From positions 1,550,001 through 1,614,000 of the forward strand of contig NZ_CP121196.1 in assembly GCF_039994875.1 (NCBI RefSeq): 64,000 bases of DNA, in the 5' to 3' direction. The DNA comes from Telmatobacter sp. DSM 110680 (lineage in GTDB: Bacteria > Acidobacteriota > Terriglobia > Terriglobales > Acidobacteriaceae). The notes beneath the pieces are model-generated. The model made no database searches. It saw only the letters and a list, made by a program, of their open reading frames with translations, and was not told the origin of the DNA. A program made the position numbers and the translations under genes. Each line of letters begins with the position of its first letter. Position 1 is the stretch's first letter. Positions 33,198 through 41,431 of the stretch are shown here, piece after piece.

Positions 33198-33767
33198 ATG
33201 CGCATTATTGCGGGAACGCTGCGGCGAAGAACGCTGGAAGCTCCGCCAGGGTTGGCGACACGGCCCACGAGCGACCGGCTCCGGGAGACGCTCTTCAACA
33301 TCCTTGCACAGCGCATGGACGGCGCGCGTTTCCTCGACCTGTACGCCGGGTCGGGCGCGGTAGGCATTGAGGCGGCAAGCCGCGGAGCAGCCAAAGTGGT
33401 TCTAGTCGAACGCGCCGAGCCTGCGCTGAAAGTGCTTCGTTCGAACCTGGAGAAGCTGGGGTTGCGCGCCGCCATTCGAGTTGAAGCAATCCCCGTGGCA
33501 GCATTTCTGCGACGGGTTCGGCCGGAAAGCGCCGCGATGCAATTTGACGTAGTGTTCCTGGATCCGCCTTATGAGGCCGCCGCCGAGTACGAATCCGCGC
33601 TCGGTCGATTAGGTGGGTCCGCCGCTAAGCTGCTTGCAGACGATGCAATCGTGATCGCAGAGCATCGGCGCAAAGAAAAGTTGGAGGAAGCCTACGGCTC
33701 GCTTCGCAGGGCAAGAGTGTTAGAGCAGGGGGATGCGGGGCTGAGTTTCTATCAAGCAGCCCCGTAG
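33198..33767 (+). CDS. rsmD: 16S rRNA (guanine-966-N2)-methyltransferase RsmD
   Basis: SAM-dependent methyltransferase that modifies G966 of 16S rRNA during 30S assembly. 189 residues, family length. Motifs: MRIIAGTLRRRTL at the start, RPTSDRLRETLFNIL, the SAM site FLDLYAGSGAVGIEAASRGA and the catalytic FLDPPYE. In many genomes rsmD is followed by coaD; here a secreted glycosidase gene follows, so the usual neighbour is absent. Confidence 0.95.
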   Translation: MRIIAGTLRRRTLEAPPGLATRPTSDRLRETLFNILAQRMDGARFLDLYAGSGAVGIEAASRGAAKVVLVERAEPALKVLRSNLEKLGLRAAIRVEAIPVAAFLRRVRPESAAMQFDVVFLDPPYEAAAEYESALGRLGGSAAKLLADDAIVIAEHRRKEKLEEAYGSLRRARVLEQGDAGLSFYQAAP

Positions 33768-33844
33768 CTGAAAATTGGACTTTCGTGCGGCGCAGAGAGA
33801 TAAGCGTCAAGCGTAAGATGGGTCGGGTCGCGGGGAGAGAACGA

Positions 33845-36265
33845 GTGAACAATATTTTGAGGTTGAAGGTAGGACTGGCGGTGCTGCTTGGGGCCGCAAC
33901 GCTCCATGCGCAGAGTGCAGCCCCGTGGGTGATTGGACCCTTTGCGCGGCCTTCGACGGGTAATCCGGTAGTGATGCCAATTCCAGCCTCGAAATTTCAA
34001 GATCCGATCGCTAAGGCGCCCGTGCAGTGGGAGGCGCTGCACACCTTCAATCCGGCGGCGATCGTGCGCCACGGGAGAATCTATGTCCTGTATCGCGCGG
34101 AAGACAACTCCGGCGCGATGGAGATTGGCGGACACACCTCGCGCCTGGGCATGGCCGAGAGTGACGACGGCATCCACTTCAAGCGTTCTGCCGAGCCGGT
34201 GTTCTACCCCGCAGAAGATGACCAGAAGGCGAGAGAGTGGCCAGGCGGCGTCGAAGATCCGCGCATCGTGGAGCGCGAAGACGGCACCTACATCCTCACC
34301 TATACCCAATGGAATCGAAAAACGTATTCTGTCGGCATCGCCACCTCGCGCGATCTCAAGCGATGGACCAAGTACGGACCGGCCTTTCTCGCCGCATCCG
34401 GCGGCAAGTACGCGAACCTGATGTACAAATCCGCCGGCATCGTCACGCAACTGAAAGACGGCCGTCTGCTTGCCGCGAAGATCGCCGATCGGTACTGGAT
34501 GTACTGGGGTGAGGGATCGATAAAGCTGGCGACATCGGACGATGCGATTCACTGGACCCCTGTCGAGGACACGCACGGAAATCCAGTCGAAATGCTTCGG
34601 CCTCGGCCCGGCCACTTCGATAGCACCTTTCCTGAAACCGGTCCACCGCCAATCCTCACCAGCGCAGGCATCGTGATGCTGTACAACGGCAAGAACGCGA
34701 CCGAGAGCGGTGACCCCGCCATGGGACCAGGTGCGTACGCCGCCGGCGAAGCGTTGTTCGAGGCCTCGAATCCTGCACACCTGCTGGAGCAGACCGACAA
34801 GCCGGTACTCAAGCCCGAACTCCCGTATGAACAGACAGGCCAGTACGCAGCCGGAACCACTTTCGCCGAGGGGCTGGTGTTCTTTCACGGCAAGTGGTTC
34901 CTGTACTACGGATGCGCGGATTCGCTGGTAGCGGTAGCCACTGCACCTGTAGAGGCCATGAGCGCTGAAACCCTGCACATGACGACGGCAGCCGAAGGTC
35001 CGATGACCGCGCCGCCGAGTTCGAAACCCGGTGTTCCGCCACCCGGCGCTGAAGCCAATGCGCGCGGCTTCTATCTCCACAAGGACGACACCGTCGTCTT
35101 TTATGGCGACAGCATCACGGAACAGAACTACTACAACCAGTGGGTCGAACTCTACACGGCAACCCGCTTCCCGTGGATGCGTGTGCACTTCTATGGCGCG
35201 GGCGTGGGCGGAGATCGCGTAAGCGGCGGCGGTGGAGGTCCCATCGATCAGCGTCTCGAACGCGATGTCTTCGCGGAGAAGCCAACCATCGTCACAGTGA
35301 TGCTGGGCATGAACGATGGAGCATATCGCGCCACCACCGACGACATTGAGCAGACCTACGTAAAGGGATATCAGCATCTGCTCGATTCCATTCGCGAACA
35401 TGTCCCCGGTGTGCGAATGACCCTACTGGGACCCTCGCCCTACGACGATGTAACGCGTCCGGTGTTCTTCCCCGGCGGATACAACGCCGTGATGCAGCAT
35501 TTTGCGGAGGTCGATCAATCGCTGGCCGACAAGTATGGCGCGGCATTCATCAATCTCAATCCTTCAGTCGTTGCGGCCATCAGCAAGGCCGACGCGCTCG
35601 ATCCGAAACTGGCCGTGTTGCTGCTGCCCGATCGCGTCCATCCCGATCCGCTCGCGCACTGGGTGATGGCTGAGGCCCTTCTGAAAGGCTGGCATGCGCC
35701 ATCCATGGTTTCCGAAATCGTTGTAGATGCGCACGCCGCCACAGTGACGCAGGCTCGCAACGCGTCCGTCAGCGAAGTTGCCCAGACCAGCGGCGAGTTG
35801 AAATGGACTGCGCTCGAAGACGCTCTGCCGCTACCATTGACACGCAGCAACGCCACCACGGCGCTGCTGCTCGATCTGACTGACATTGAGCAGCAACTCA
35901 ACCAGGAAACCCTACGCGTCACCGGACTTGCCGCCGGCCGCTACACCCTCAGTATCGATGGTGAGGCGGTGGACACTTTTTCGCCGGAAGCGCTGGAAGC
36001 AGGAATCAATCTCGCCGACTACGGCACGCCGATGTTTCACCAGGCACAGCGCGTAAGCTGGCTGGTGCGCGATCGCGACGAGGCACACTACATTCATCTG
36101 CGCATGCGCGTGCGCAACGCCGATACCGGCAGCGAAGAAGGCAAGGACGTCATGCAGGCCTTCGAGAATTCTCTTGAAGATTCTATCTACGAGGCCGCCG
36201 CGCCCAAGCCGCATGTATTTCGCCTCACCCCGGTTCCGACCGGTACGACACAAAGCACCCGCTGA
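33845..36265 (+). CDS. Secreted GH130-like and SGNH hydrolase fusion
   Basis: 806-residue exported protein from a GTG at 33845, preceded by GGGGAGA; the leader ends near LHAQ. Residues ~30-390 form a five-bladed beta-propeller of the GH130 type (mannoside phosphorylase/hydrolase): FNPAAIVRHGRIYVLYRAED, then WPGGVEDPRIVE near residue 135 and TYTQWNRKTY. Residues ~415-620 are an SGNH/GDSL esterase with GDSITEQ near 421, GAGVGGDRV, LGMNDG and DRVHPD near 595, so the Ser, Gly, Asn and Asp/His blocks are all present. A C-terminal beta-rich region follows. Secretion makes hydrolysis likelier than intracellular phosphorolysis. A plausible job is deacylating and cleaving mannosides; this is inference. 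Confidence 0.8.
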   Translation: MNNILRLKVGLAVLLGAATLHAQSAAPWVIGPFARPSTGNPVVMPIPASKFQDPIAKAPVQWEALHTFNPAAIVRHGRIYVLYRAEDNSGAMEIGGHTSRLGMAESDDGIHFKRSAEPVFYPAEDDQKAREWPGGVEDPRIVEREDGTYILTYTQWNRKTYSVGIATSRDLKRWTKYGPAFLAASGGKYANLMYKSAGIVTQLKDGRLLAAKIADRYWMYWGEGSIKLATSDDAIHWTPVEDTHGNPVEMLRPRPGHFDSTFPETGPPPILTSAGIVMLYNGKNATESGDPAMGPGAYAAGEALFEASNPAHLLEQTDKPVLKPELPYEQTGQYAAGTTFAEGLVFFHGKWFLYYGCADSLVAVATAPVEAMSAETLHMTTAAEGPMTAPPSSKPGVPPPGAEANARGFYLHKDDTVVFYGDSITEQNYYNQWVELYTATRFPWMRVHFYGAGVGGDRVSGGGGGPIDQRLERDVFAEKPTIVTVMLGMNDGAYRATTDDIEQTYVKGYQHLLDSIREHVPGVRMTLLGPSPYDDVTRPVFFPGGYNAVMQHFAEVDQSLADKYGAAFINLNPSVVAAISKADALDPKLAVLLLPDRVHPDPLAHWVMAEALLKGWHAPSMVSEIVVDAHAATVTQARNASVSEVAQTSGELKWTALEDALPLPLTRSNATTALLLDLTDIEQQLNQETLRVTGLAAGRYTLSIDGEAVDTFSPEALEAGINLADYGTPMFHQAQRVSWLVRDRDEAHYIHLRMRVRNADTGSEEGKDVMQAFENSLEDSIYEAAAPKPHVFRLTPVPTGTTQSTR

Positions 36266-36332: not shown

Positions 36333-38276
36333 GTGTTGGAGACGGATGCAACCGACTTGCGCGATGTCACCACCCATGCCTCCGGTCCAGCGGGCTCCCT
36401 GCCGTTAACGCCAGAGATGTTGTTGAATGAGCCATCCGGAAATCTTTTCGGACTCAGCCAGAATGCGGGAATGGGATGGGAGCCTTCGCGGCTTCTCGAC
36501 CCGGAATTTCTGATCCTCAGCACCCACGGCGGTATGCGCGCCGAAAACGGACGCCCCATCGCTCTCGGCTTTCACACCGGACACTGGGAAGTAGGCCTAC
36601 TTGTCGCCGAAGCTGCGCGCGAGCTGAAAGCTCTGCACTCTACGCCTTTCGCCGGCTCATGCACCGATCCCTGCGATGGAAGAACGCAGGGCACAACCGG
36701 CATGATGGACTCGCTGCCGTTTCGTAACGATGCCGCGATGGTACTGCGGCGGCTCATGCGATCCCTGCCTACCAGTAAAGGCGTGCTCGGCGTGGCCACC
36801 TGCGACAAAGGGCTGCCGGCAATGATGATGGCGCTCGCCTCCGTAGGTTCGCTCCCGGCAGTATTGGTGCCCGGCGGTGTCACGCTCCTGCCCGAGTCTG
36901 GCGAAGATGCAGGCAAGGTCCAGACCATCGGCGCGCGCTTTGCCCAGCAGCAGATCACGCTCGAATACGCAGCCGAAGTTGGTTGCCGGACTTGTGCATC
37001 GCCAGGCGGTGGATGCCAGTTCCTCGGCACGGCAGCGACCGCGCAAGTCGTGGGCGAAGCATTGGGATTGTCATTGCCCCACACCGCGCTCGCACCCTCC
37101 GGTCAGTCTGTCTGGCTCGACGCGGCAAAACGATCTGCACGTGCAATCATCCGGTTGCATGAATTGAAATTCGGAGTGCGCAATGTGTTAACGGATGCAG
37201 CCGTGCGCAATGCAATGGTGTTGCACGCGGCATTTGGCGGCTCCACAAATCTGCTATTGCATTTACCCGCGATTGCATTTTCCGCAGGATTGAAGCGCCC
37301 CAGCCGCGCCGACTGGGAAGAAGTAAATCGCAGCGTCCCGCGCCTCGTAGACGCCCTGCCCAATGGTCCGCATGGATTCGCGACCGTACAGGTGTTTCTC
37401 GCCGGCGGCGTCCCCGAGGTCATGCTGGAACTCCGCTCGGCAGGCCTCCTTGATGGGAGTGTCCACACCGTTACAGGCGATACGCTCAATGCTAGCCTAG
37501 ACTGGTGGCGCGACAGCGAACGCCGGCACACGCTGCGCGGCAAGCTCACACAACTCGACGGCATCGACGCAGATGACGTCATCATGACTCCCGATCGTGC
37601 GCGCGAGCGCGGACTCACGGCGACCGTCTGCTTTCCCGTCGGCAACCTCGCGCCTGAGGGATCGGTCATCAAGAGCACCGCCATCGATCCCTCGCTGATT
37701 GGCAACGACAACATATTCAGCCACCGCGGTCCCGCGCGCGTATTTACAACGGAGGCTGCAGCAATCGCGGCGATCAAGTCGGGTGCCATCGGCCATGGCG
37801 ATGTGCTGGTGCTCATATGCGGCGGTCCGAAAGGCGCCGGAATGCAGGAGATCTATCAGGTCACCTCCGCCCTCAAGCAACTGCCCCACTGCAAGCACGT
37901 CGCCGTGCTCACCGATGCGCGTTTCAGCGGCGTTTCCACCGGCGCCTGCATTGGTCACATCTCCCCTGAAGCACTGTCGGGCGGTCCAATCGGTAAGGTA
38001 AACGACGGCGACCTTATTGAAATCGTGGTCGACCGCGGCAAATTGACTGCCTCGGTGCATCTCGTCGGCGACGCCGACGGTGAATTCACTGCGGAAGAGG
38101 GCTCGCGCAAGTTGGCCGCACGCAACCCGCGAACCGATCTCAAGTCGCACCCGGCGCTCCCGGACGATACTCGCCTGTGGGCCGCACTGGTAGAAGCCAG
38201 CGGTGGAGTATGGGGCGGTTGCGTCTACGACACCGAAAAGATCGTTGCCGCCCTCAATCATCCAATCAGCACCTAG
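36333..38276 (+). CDS. yjhG: D-xylonate-type dehydratase, YjhG/YagF family
   Basis: Iron-sulfur dehydratase of the IlvD/Edd superfamily, very similar along its length to E. coli YjhG/YagF, which dehydrate D-xylonate to 2-keto-3-deoxy-xylonate. Shared blocks: [53 protein letters not shown] (cluster cysteines), [23 protein letters not shown] and [16 protein letters not shown]. The GTG at 36333 gives 647 residues but has no ribosome site. A perfect AAGGAGGG at 36297-36304 is instead followed 4 bases later by an in-frame ATC at 36309, which would give an N-terminus nearer the E. coli length. The start is therefore open. Confidence 0.9.
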
Positions 38277-38333: not shown

Positions 38334-40385
38334 TTAGCTATTCTTCAAAACCGGAAACGCGGTGATGCGCAACTTAGCGGTTGCATATGGAATCAGGGTA
38401 ATCTCTTCCGCTGGCTCCTCGCTTGTAACGGGGCTTTGCAGGAGCGTATTGGCTACTCCATCTTCCGCGCGCCATGCCGGAATTTTGCGCGCCTTCACGC
38501 GCAGTTGTACCGGCGGATTCTTTCGAGCAAAGGGAAGATCACCTACTTCCGCTTCGGTGACCGCGATGTCATTTGCCGCGTCGCCGGTATTCAATTGCAA
38601 TGCATAGTTCCAAGCCGTGGTGGGATACACCTGCCAGTCAGCAGTCATGCCGCGATCGCGCAGTTTCACCCAGTCTTCTCCGATCCCGTAGGAGAAGACC
38701 AGCGGACCGCGTTCAATCGCAACCGAGTCATTGAACCAGCGTGAAACACGCGGCCTCATTGGAAATGTGATTTCCACGCGATCGCCGGATTTCCATGAAC
38801 GCTGAATTCGCGCGAACGAACCTGCGGCTGGCTCCGGTTCACTACGGCCATTCACAGTGATGGTGGTTCCCGCAGCCCACGCGGGGATCCGCAGATGAAG
38901 TGGGAATTCGAGCGGGGCGGCCGGGCTGACAGTGATTTGAACGTTACCGCGAAACGGATATTCGGTTTCCTCAACGATATGTATCGGGGTTCCATGCAGA
39001 CTAGTGCTCACTTCGCAAGGAGCATAAGCGGCAGCGACCAACCCATCCCGTGGGTCATTCGCCGCTCCACCGCACATTAGAAACAGACTCGCAGCAAATT
39101 TTGGCCAGCCCTGGTGATAGTTCGCGGTGCAGCAGCCAAAGTTGGGCTCAAGACCAAATAGATTGGATTCCGGACCGTCGCTGACCCACGGCTTATGGTG
39201 CAGGCTGCACTCCACCTGGTTCGGCTCCTGGTTATATTGGTGCGCCCACATATCGTCAGTCAGCGTGCCGGGCAGCGCGTTGAATGCGAGGCGCTCAAGG
39301 CGATCGCCAAACGCCGCATCGCCAGTGATGGCGAGAGCGCGCTCCAGCGAGTACATGTATTCGACCACGGTGCAGAGTTCCGAACCTTGCGAAGGATCGC
39401 GGCCGGAGAGATGTTCGTCGCAGGAGAACATGCCATTGGGCAAGCCGTGATACTTGTCGAGTTCCGCAATCATCTGCGTTGCGGCTTTGCGATCGCTTTC
39501 GGACCCAGAGACGAGCGACCACACCGGCCCTGTCTTCACCGCCTGCCCATTGTTCACGCCGTGTGTTGAAAGCGCGAGATCCTTGAGACCCCCGTCTTCG
39601 TTGAGCTTGATGAACTCGGCCGTGATCTTTTGCTTGTATTGAAAGTTCGCATACTGCGCCATCCAGTCGTAGCCCTGCGTGTGCAAAAGCCGCGCGAGAT
39701 CGAGGAGATACGCCGCGCCGGTCCGGTTATAGAGCCAGGTGACGCTAAGCACTTCGTCCTGCCAGCGGAATTTGCCCCAGTCGCGCAGTGGACGTTTGGG
39801 AAGTTCGGAAAGCTGGTAACGGAAATACCGGTCCATAAGCGGCATTACGCGTGGATCGCCGGTGAATTCCTGGTATTGCGTGAGGACTTTTAGTGCGACG
39901 ATGCGCGGCCACCAGTCATCATTCGAAGCTGGACCGATCATGCCATTCGACGCCTGGTTGGTCAGAATCCACTCCATGTACTTTTGCGCTTTCGCTTTGA
40001 GACGCGCGTCATCGAGAAGCCACGCGAGAGGAATGAGGCCGTCGAGGTAATAGGGTCCGCGCTCCCACGATTCGCCTTTGCCCCCGAGCCATCCGCTATT
40101 GGAACCAACGTCGGCCCACGTCTCGTCGAGGTGCCCTGAAAGTCCATTGGCCTGGATCTCCAACTGCCGGCGAAGCCATCCCGCCGGACGAACCTGTCCC
40201 AGCGGCAGCGGATAGAACGCGCTGGCATTGAGCGGTGCCCGATTTTTAACGGTGACAACGGACTGTGAATCGGCCCGATGTTCGGCGAGAGCGAAAATCT
40301 TGCGTGCCGGCAGAGCGCAAGCGAGCCCCGCGAACCCGGACTGTTGAAGAAAGCGGCGACGCGAAGTACGGAATCGTTGCGACAT
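38334..40385 (-). CDS. GH127-like beta-L-arabinofuranosidase (DUF1680)
   Basis: 683-residue protein exported through Tat (SRRRFLQQSGFAGLA at the N-terminus). It belongs to the GH127/DUF1680 family, whose HypBA1 member releases beta-L-arabinofuranose using a Cys nucleophile held by zinc. The equivalent residues are here: Glu336 and Cys338 in GSELCTVVEYM, and Cys418-Cys419 in FGCCTANYHQG. The catalytic alpha/alpha barrel spans about 40-430 and beta-sandwich domains follow. The ATG at 40385 is used because it starts the Tat signal after AGGTG; the longer frame to 40559 overlaps the divergent nucleoside hydrolase gene. Confidence 0.88.
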   Translation of the reverse strand: MSQRFRTSRRRFLQQSGFAGLACALPARKIFALAEHRADSQSVVTVKNRAPLNASAFYPLPLGQVRPAGWLRRQLEIQANGLSGHLDETWADVGSNSGWLGGKGESWERGPYYLDGLIPLAWLLDDARLKAKAQKYMEWILTNQASNGMIGPASNDDWWPRIVALKVLTQYQEFTGDPRVMPLMDRYFRYQLSELPKRPLRDWGKFRWQDEVLSVTWLYNRTGAAYLLDLARLLHTQGYDWMAQYANFQYKQKITAEFIKLNEDGGLKDLALSTHGVNNGQAVKTGPVWSLVSGSESDRKAATQMIAELDKYHGLPNGMFSCDEHLSGRDPSQGSELCTVVEYMYSLERALAITGDAAFGDRLERLAFNALPGTLTDDMWAHQYNQEPNQVECSLHHKPWVSDGPESNLFGLEPNFGCCTANYHQGWPKFAASLFLMCGGAANDPRDGLVAAAYAPCEVSTSLHGTPIHIVEETEYPFRGNVQITVSPAAPLEFPLHLRIPAWAAGTTITVNGRSEPEPAAGSFARIQRSWKSGDRVEITFPMRPRVSRWFNDSVAIERGPLVFSYGIGEDWVKLRDRGMTADWQVYPTTAWNYALQLNTGDAANDIAVTEAEVGDLPFARKNPPVQLRVKARKIPAWRAEDGVANTLLQSPVTSEEPAEEITLIPYATAKLRITAFPVLKNS

Positions 40386-40447
40386 AGACACCTGTGTGCG
40401 ACCGTCAACAGAGTAATGGACGGGGCCGAGGCGATAGAGTACTTGGC

Positions 40448-41431
40448 ATGAAAATTCCTCGGGTTCTAGTTGTCTTGTGCGCACTGTTGTTCGCTGTTTT
40501 CGGGTCATTGGCGGCGCGGGCGCAGGCTTCTGATGCCGATAAAGCCATCTCAACTCCACAACTGGTTATCATCGATACCGATATCGGCGATGACATTGAT
40601 GACGCCTTTGCACTGGCGTTGGCGCTGAAGAGTCCGGAACTCAGAGTCCTTGGCGTGACGACGACCTTCGGCAACACCGAGATGCGCGCGCGACTTCTCG
40701 ACCGATATCTAAAGGACGTGGGACGAAGCGATATTCCAGTGTTTGCCGGACCACCTTCAAAGACAGACAACCTGATGACGCAGGCGGCTTATGCGAAGCA
40801 AACTCCGGAGAAGAAACACCAAGGCGGTGCGGAGTTTATTTTGCGCGAAGCTCGTGAGCATCCCGGTGAAATAACACTCATCGGAATTGGGCCTCTGTTC
40901 ACAGTGCAGGCAGCAATTGAGCACGATCCGGCTGCATTCAAAAAGTTGAAGCGAGTGGTGATTATGGGTGGCAGCATCGAGCGCGGTTATGGAGTCGATG
41001 CGCAAGGCATGCCAAATCCACCGCAACCGGAATGGAACATTCTGTGCGATCCGGCCGGAGCAAAGGCGCTGTTGGCGTCAGGCGTGCCAGTATTCATGAT
41101 GCCGCTCGATTCCACTCAAGTGCCGCTCGATGCGGGGAAGCGGGATGCGATCTTTGCGCATGGATCTCCGCTCACTGATCAGTTGACGCTGCTCTATCAC
41201 GAATGGATCGGTAACACTTCGAACCGCAGTCCAACGCCGACCCTGTTCGATCCGGTTGCGGTTACGTTCACATTTCGTCCGGATCTTTGCCCTACCAAGC
41301 CAATGCATATTGAAGTCGATGGCAAGGGGCTGACAACATTAGGGCCCGGAGATCCGAATGCGCGGGTCTGTCTGCAGTCAGACGAGAAGTCCTTCCTTGA
41401 CCTGCTCGTTAAACGGATAACTGCAGACTGA
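40448..41431 (+). CDS. Secreted inosine-uridine-preferring nucleoside hydrolase
   Basis: Cleaves the N-glycosidic bond of ribonucleosides. 327 residues with a signal peptide (cleavage near ARAQ), so it acts in the periplasm. The calcium-binding family motif DTDIGDDIDDAFAL is intact, followed by LGVTTTFGNT, a central RVVIMGGSIE and, in the C-terminal half, LFDPVAV. The start at 40448 gives the signal peptide; an in-frame ATG at 40394 would add an unlikely leader. It diverges from the GH127-like gene, 62 bases apart, so both promoters lie in that gap. Confidence 0.88.
   Translation: MKIPRVLVVLCALLFAVFGSLAARAQASDADKAISTPQLVIIDTDIGDDIDDAFALALALKSPELRVLGVTTTFGNTEMRARLLDRYLKDVGRSDIPVFAGPPSKTDNLMTQAAYAKQTPEKKHQGGAEFILREAREHPGEITLIGIGPLFTVQAAIEHDPAAFKKLKRVVIMGGSIERGYGVDAQGMPNPPQPEWNILCDPAGAKALLASGVPVFMMPLDSTQVPLDAGKRDAIFAHGSPLTDQLTLLYHEWIGNTSNRSPTPTLFDPVAVTFTFRPDLCPTKPMHIEVDGKGLTTLGPGDPNARVCLQSDEKSFLDLLVKRITAD

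Follow-up and report, generated by a model that had tools for sequence, protein, structure and literature searches.

The window, i.e., the whole 64,000-nt stretch of Telmatobacter sp. DSM 110680 DNA that was analysed, contains a gene in which a GH130 propeller and an SGNH hydrolase share one reading frame (Table 1). This frame is unbroken from the GTG at 33845 to the TGA at 36263-36265, with other in-frame starts lying upstream, the longest version beginning at GTG 33785. On the one chain, Pfam recovered Glyco_hydro_130 (E 3.2e-39, 135 bits) and Lipase_GDSL_2 (E 6.4e-21, 76 bits), which span residues 84-391 and 439-625 of the 826-aa version, respectively. The sequence-only reading had described a single polypeptide that carries a GH130 domain and a complete SGNH hydrolase, and the intact ORF, both Pfam domains and the full set of SGNH blocks bear this out. 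The N-terminus has a hydrophobic run that ends at LHA/QS and, as read by eye, resembles a signal peptide; the protein is likely exported.

No recognisable mannan utilisation cluster surrounds the gene in the window. A GH127-like protein (Pfam Glyco_hydro127M) is encoded nearby on the opposite strand at 38334-40559 and is retained in several relatives, while a long antisense ORF at 33752-35401 was regarded as a shadow ORF caused by the high GC content of the coding strand. Three GH92 genes are present elsewhere on the chromosome. GH92 enzymes are alpha-mannosidases, and these genes fit with the use of alpha-mannan by the strain.

Table 1. Coordinates in the window of the fusion gene, its mapped residues and its neighbours
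Feature	Position	Strand	Basis or remark
Fusion gene, 806 aa, GTG start, TGA stop	33845..36265	+	12 distinct fused sequences
Signal-peptide-like N-terminus, residues 1-22, ending LHA/QS	33845..33910	+	by eye from the sequence
GH130 five-bladed propeller, residues 28-368, BT3780 (beta-1,2-mannosidase) type	33926..34948	+	
E137-D138, equivalent to BT3780 E141 and D142 (candidate catalytic acid)	34253..34258	+	alignment mapping; roles from excerpts of PMC4599007
K195, equivalent to BT3780 K199, beta-1,2 specificity lysine	34427..34429	+	
E223, equivalent to BT3780 E227, one of the catalytic-base pair	34511..34513	+	
E264, equivalent to BT3780 E268, the other of the catalytic-base pair	34634..34636	+	
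Linker, residues 369-407, mostly low confidence, weakly constrained	34949..35065	+	pLDDT, dN/dS
SGNH hydrolase core, residues 408-619	35066..35701	+	Pfam PF13472/PF00657; 7br2 match
S423, catalytic serine of GDSIT	35111..35113	+	identical in 12/12
N490 of GMNDG, oxyanion-hole block	35312..35314	+	identical in 12/12
D596 to H599 of DRVHP, catalytic Asp and His	35630..35641	+	identical in 12/12
C-terminal region, residues 620-806, common to BT4096	35702..36262	+	VIA-align to 7br2
Downstream YjhG/YagF-type D-xylonate dehydratase, 67 nt past the fusion	36333..38276	+	context only; kept beside several relatives
Upstream methyltransferase (Pfam Cons_hypoth95), which we take to be of the RsmD type	33198..33767	+	context only

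Active-site residues and relatives of the two halves

The best solved relatives of the GH130 half were 3r67 (BT_4094), 3taw, 3qc2, 5a7v and 4onz, which scored 388-404 bits over approximately 340 residues; in phmmer, 404 bits were obtained against 3r67 and 392 bits against 5a7v (BT3780). The same five structures were matched by the predicted fold with a target-normalised TM of 0.90-0.96 in Foldseek. BT4094, which is 53% identical and encoded as a separate gene, is thus among the closest solved relatives by both sequence and structure. As described in the excerpts of PMC4599007, BT3780 and BACOVA_03624 (5a7v and 3qc2) hydrolyse beta-1,2-mannosides with inversion, and in BT3780, E227 and E268 form the base pair, D142 is the candidate acid and K199 determines the beta-1,2 specificity. 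The two enzymes resemble the GH130 half over the whole propeller (about 50% identity), have the same active-site residues and possess a signal peptide comparable to the signal-like N-terminus of the fusion. They differ in being single-domain proteins from Bacteroides yeast-mannan loci, whereas the fusion is acidobacterial, linked to an esterase and placed outside any recognisable mannan locus. The other BT3780 binding positions are filled by N69, R84, E137, Y298, Y334, F340 and D359, so that all of the mapped active-site residues are conserved, and none of the corresponding columns varies among the 12 fused proteins.

The NCBIfam models favoured the same relationship, with 472 bits for the BT3780-mannosidase model compared to 141 and 74 bits for two phosphorylase models. 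Since the score did not reach the 550-bit cut-off of NF058598 (beta-1,2-mannosidase BT3780 equivalog), we placed the GH130 half in the wider BT3780 branch rather than under that name. The residues and scores strongly support its assignment to the secreted BT3780-type beta-1,2-mannosidase branch, a predicted hydrolase and not a phosphorylase; the secreted hydrolase branch itself is already known.

In the SGNH half, the blocks GDSIT, GGDR, GMNDG and DRVHP, which we take to be blocks I (GDS), II (G), III (GxND) and V (DxxH), are complete, and their catalytic residues do not vary among the 12 fused proteins that were aligned. The nearest solved protein was 7br2, which is BT4096 (133 bits by sequence). 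Its alignment with a model of the SGNH half using VIA-align (Z 27.3, 362 residues, rmsd 3.9, model residues 8-402) covered the core and the C-terminal region, nearly the full length, so that the stretch after the core can be assigned to a known BT4096-like unit rather than to a new domain; the next-best structure (Z 15.9) matched only the core. BT4096 has the same catalytic blocks, but its identity to the SGNH half is about 27% and it stands alone in Bacteroides. By its fold and residues, the SGNH half is very likely an esterase. The title of 7br2 names a gut microbial diltiazem-metabolizing enzyme, and the excerpts of two reviews report that the BT4096 gene was needed for the deacetylation of diltiazem in colonised mice. 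The literature drawn on, each paper in part, comprised PMC4599007, PMC4264767, PMC8808336, PMC10720646 and PMC8763404.

In the full-length model (mean pLDDT 80), most of the GH130 half exceeded 90, the SGNH half was weaker and residues 371-407 fell below 50; with an overall pTM of 0.51 and a low-confidence linker, the relative placement of the domains was left unused. A model of the SGNH half alone, built from 11 sequences, had a mean pLDDT of 73. Among the five pairs that were compared, dN/dS was 0.03-0.09 for the GH130 half, 0.05-0.19 for the SGNH core and 0.06-0.18 for the C-terminal region, with several of the underlying dS values being saturated (>1.5). Both halves are under purifying selection. 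The linker reached 0.26-0.53 in the four of five pairs in which it could be computed and, varying from about 5 to 45 residues among the fusions, is weakly constrained. The fusion is no sequencing accident, given its presence in 12 distinct sequences and the low dN/dS of both halves.

Distribution and history of the fusion

Among 300 genomes from the family of the window, both halves were found in one ORF in six, including the window's own, and all six fall among the 21 genomes of its genus; in a seventh genome of the genus (G124), the GH130 and SGNH parts are two adjacent genes. The 396 genomes from the phylum contributed a one-ORF fusion in two cases, both from the same genus. Among the genome contigs, 80 loci were retained out of 120 confirmed relatives, and 10 of these 80 are fused. 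The search for the same domain pair, which had been proposed from the sequence, thus yielded 12 distinct fusions, counted as the contig loci with duplicates merged plus the window and L126, and in none of these does a stop or frame break separate the halves; the two parts are separate genes in one relative, and the SGNH part is absent from many others. All 12 are apparently acidobacterial. One of them, L042 (5836-8244), was filed as Chitinophagaceae, but the YjhG fragment downstream of it is about 90% identical to the acidobacterial ones, and the contig was therefore probably misassigned or transferred. The N-terminal part of its GH130 is more divergent (42-61% in three blocks compared to 73-88% just after), and this half may be a mosaic.

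With the exception of L042, every fused locus (11 of 12) has the M50-type protease gene a short way upstream, as do the two-gene locus L121 and 16 GH130-only loci, some of which are near-copies of one another; a YjhG-type dehydratase follows in 8 of the 12 fused loci. These common flanking genes indicate that GH130 alone and GH130-SGNH share one chromosomal place. Many relatives have a GH130 gene without an SGNH part at the equivalent site, and the SGNH half is therefore not required for the function of the GH130. No SGNH remnant was detected by tblastn behind the GH130-only genes of 18 loci, where the sole match (E 0.62, in L065) was far from the gene. The SGNH frame of L121 opens 39 nt past the GH130 frame, with a GGAGG site that resembles a ribosome-binding site and a signal-like N-terminus of its own.

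In the SGNH tree, the 12 fused proteins group with the two-gene L121 in a single clade (96/92). A single clean origin of the fusion was rejected, since the GH130 halves from 11 of the fused proteins failed to group as one clade (p-AU 0.004) in a tree that was built without L042 because of its mosaic-looking GH130 half. The placing of the eight fused rows on one side of the later 62-row GH130 tree reflects only that rows without a group are left out of that count. The fusion may have arisen once and then been lost several times, or it may have been formed or transferred repeatedly at the same site. An SGNH clade restricted to the fused proteins, without L121, was not rejected (p-AU 0.304), while in the SGNH tree that included Bacteroidota, from which the long-branch rows L159, L165, L169 and L171 had been dropped beforehand, L121 paired with the fused L041 (98/95). 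L121 may be a fusion that has split, or it may represent the older state.

Other combinations of these parts were also observed. In the distant genome G657 (isolate PMG_196), a 908-aa GH130-SGNH-F5/8C protein is encoded near a GH92 gene and a LacI-type regulator; its SGNH part gave no blastp match to that of the window at E 1e-5. The same genome encodes a 1479-aa GH2-Ig-F5/8C-GH130 protein with a BT3780-type GH130 beside a GH88 gene (L107 2605-7041 / L186 8671-13107). Across the phylum of G657 (291 genomes), BT4096-like SGNH matches are frequent, and wherever rows were compared they were located on a different contig from GH130. Furthermore, SGNH halves that are 53-55% identical to that of the window are fused to a GH88-family domain in two genomes (L114 3835-6249, L115 2296-4710). 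A 1114-aa ORF (L122 3978-7319, the same ORF in L086) joins GH130 to an S9 prolyl oligopeptidase and, since it is present in one genome only, may reflect a lost stop.

The Bacteroidota parallel and the predicted function

The locus tags of BT4094 and BT4096, which match the GH130 and the SGNH half, respectively, are two numbers apart. In a plasmid-labelled record of B. finegoldii, their near-identical orthologs (775 bits against 3r67, 895 bits against 7br2) are adjacent, with 49 nt between them, behind SusC/SusD-like genes and two GH92 genes. In P. distasonis, a BDI_3141-like GH130 (3taw, 822 bits) adjoins a BT4096-like SGNH (520 bits), with one GH92 gene before the pair and two after it. As GH92 enzymes are alpha-mannosidases, a mannan-type glycan is likely there. 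Among the 28 matched plasmid-labelled records, the pair is listed for these two records only. Six more of the 28 regions were inspected, in one of which (L189) GH130 occurs with GH76, GH125 and GH92; a B. finegoldii region (L191) has a GH130 in a GH2/GH88/GH43 cluster, and a further one of the inspected regions (L192) has an SGNH with GH38, GH92 and GH78, among other arrangements. When the best two or three candidates per Bacteroidota genome were considered, no adjacent GH130-SGNH pair was found among the matches listed, and in G1039 the two genes are about 28 kb apart. In the tree, the fused and the Bacteroidota SGNH clades are far apart, and this distance, together with the SGNH identity of about 27%, argues that the association across the phyla is not one inherited ancestral pair. 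The TSDC17.2 records of B. finegoldii and P. distasonis, including L183 and L184, carry chromosome-like genes (dxs, tatC and SusC/SusD loci), because of which we suspect that they are probably mislabelled pieces of chromosome. In L184 (11905-13035), the B. finegoldii BT4094 ortholog has Gln at the position of the beta-1,2 lysine, whereas 3r67 itself has Lys.

The reading that we consider to be reasonably probable is that of an exported bifunctional enzyme, which would deacylate a mannan-type glycan and remove its terminal beta-mannose. The GH130 half would take off the non-reducing terminal beta-mannose, most likely beta-1,2-linked, by a one-step inverting hydrolysis in which E223/E264 activate a water for attack on the anomeric carbon, D138 is the candidate proton source and phosphate is unused. 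The SGNH half, as a serine esterase with S423/H599/D596, would strip an acyl substituent, with acetyl as the likeliest candidate, from that same glycan, whereby blocked ends would become substrates or the released sugar could be taken up. That acetyl on a mannoside is the target and that the two halves have a common substrate is favoured to a similar, modest degree; the acylated mannosides that the sequence-only reading had suggested are approached by analogy with the BT4096 deacetylase and the GH92-rich neighbourhoods in Bacteroidota. The source may be fungal or microbial mannan. The fusion is a new arrangement of known families, and its value lies in the parallel with BT4094 and BT4096: a domain fusion in one phylum and a gene neighbourhood in another are a classic sign of a shared function. 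Here, they tie an esterase known for a side activity on a drug to a partly characterised branch of GH130 hydrolases and hint at the natural job of BT4096. Judged by their titles and the start of their abstracts, none of the open-access PMC papers listed by the searches describes such a fusion or a native role of BT4096. Tentatively, and with more doubt than confidence, the fusion might serve as a Rosetta-stone clue that BT4096 and BT4094 deacylate and trim acylated beta-mannoside caps, with the deacetylation of diltiazem being a side reaction. If this is true, acyl-capped beta-mannans, of fungi or others, would be cleared by paired GH130 and SGNH enzymes in both soil and gut. Moreover, the substrates of soil beta-mannosidases may carry acyl groups that are missed by assays on de-esterified mannan.

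Against the bifunctional reading stand the NCBIfam score below the equivalog cut-off, the low SGNH identity to BT4096, the relatives that lack an SGNH part, the missing mannan cluster around the gene and the Gln of the B. finegoldii BT4094 ortholog; in addition, BT4096-like SGNH proteins often occur where GH130 does not, two being fused to GH88 and many lying on other contigs. The halves could instead have separate targets within one complex glycan or cell wall, with the esterase directed, for example, to acetylated pectin, xylan or a bacterial exopolysaccharide, and be fused only for joint export and dosage. The close SGNH relatives whose fusion partner is a GH88-family domain (unsaturated uronyl hydrolase) and which adjoin the fused clade in the tree, the separate contigs in many genomes and the B. 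finegoldii GH130 in the GH2/GH88/GH43 cluster would all be compatible with this. We nevertheless consider it unlikely, as the association of BT3780-type GH130 with SGNH recurs in three settings that involve different SGNH lineages, two of them beside GH92. It is improbable that one half is a degenerate passenger, such as an inactive esterase that aids binding, or that the fusion is a transient accident. The SGNH half does appear to be dispensable over time, since it is missing at the shared site in many relatives and the fused GH130 halves are not one clade, but the catalytic residues of both halves are intact in every fusion and both have a low dN/dS.

The predicted bifunctional hydrolase can also be set against the GH130 enzymes of the same genome. 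Its two GH130 paralogs (L002 and L003), one of which scored 528 bits against Uhgb_MS, resemble phosphorylases of the Teth514_1788, Uhgb_MS and Lin0857 type. These phosphorylases share the propeller fold and the catalytic Asp with the GH130 half, but they are less than 30% identical to it and have basic residues in place of the glutamate pair. Both paralogs have no Glu at either base position, carry the basic-residue motifs HRP, DSAR/DANK and YHG and, opposite to the fusion, score higher with the phosphorylase models. Phosphate binding is attributed to "three basic residues" in the excerpts of PMC4599007, and the basic residues of the paralogs, which are absent from the GH130 half in the alignment, are presumably phosphate binders. 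Because of these differences in base Glu, basic motifs and model scores, the strain probably has one exported mannosidase alongside separate phosphorylases; the latter may be cytoplasmic, going by what is known of the family. The WPGGVEDPRI motif that had been called phosphorylase-type is indeed present (residues 132-141), but it is common to phosphorylases and hydrolases, and the domain is of the hydrolase type; the proposal of a hydrolytic, exported GH130 is well supported by its solved relatives, which are secreted beta-1,2-mannosidases, and by E223/E264, at whose positions the paralogs have no acidic residue. A mannoside phosphorylase, as most characterised GH130 members are, was rejected as highly improbable: the GGxEDPRI stretch and the fold are shared with phosphorylases, and the GH130_NC enzymes Teth514_1788/1789 are phosphorylases despite a Glu beside the catalytic Asp (excerpts of PMC4264767), but the glutamate pair is present, the R of HRP, the R/K of DSAR/DANK and the H of YHG are absent, the model scores favour a mannosidase and phosphate coupling would be useless after the likely export.

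The specificity and base positions were largely kept across the GH130 set of 62 rows, of which 61 are different because L201 repeats the window. Lys is found at the K195 column in 59 of the 62 rows (the window being counted twice via L201), with Gln in L184 and a gap in L002 and L003. At the E223 column most rows match, with Asp in L121, L215, L218 and L221 and Val in L203-L208. The latter six proteins, which came from the search of the phylum of G654, form a clade that has Val at the site of BT3780 Glu227 and retains the partner Glu.
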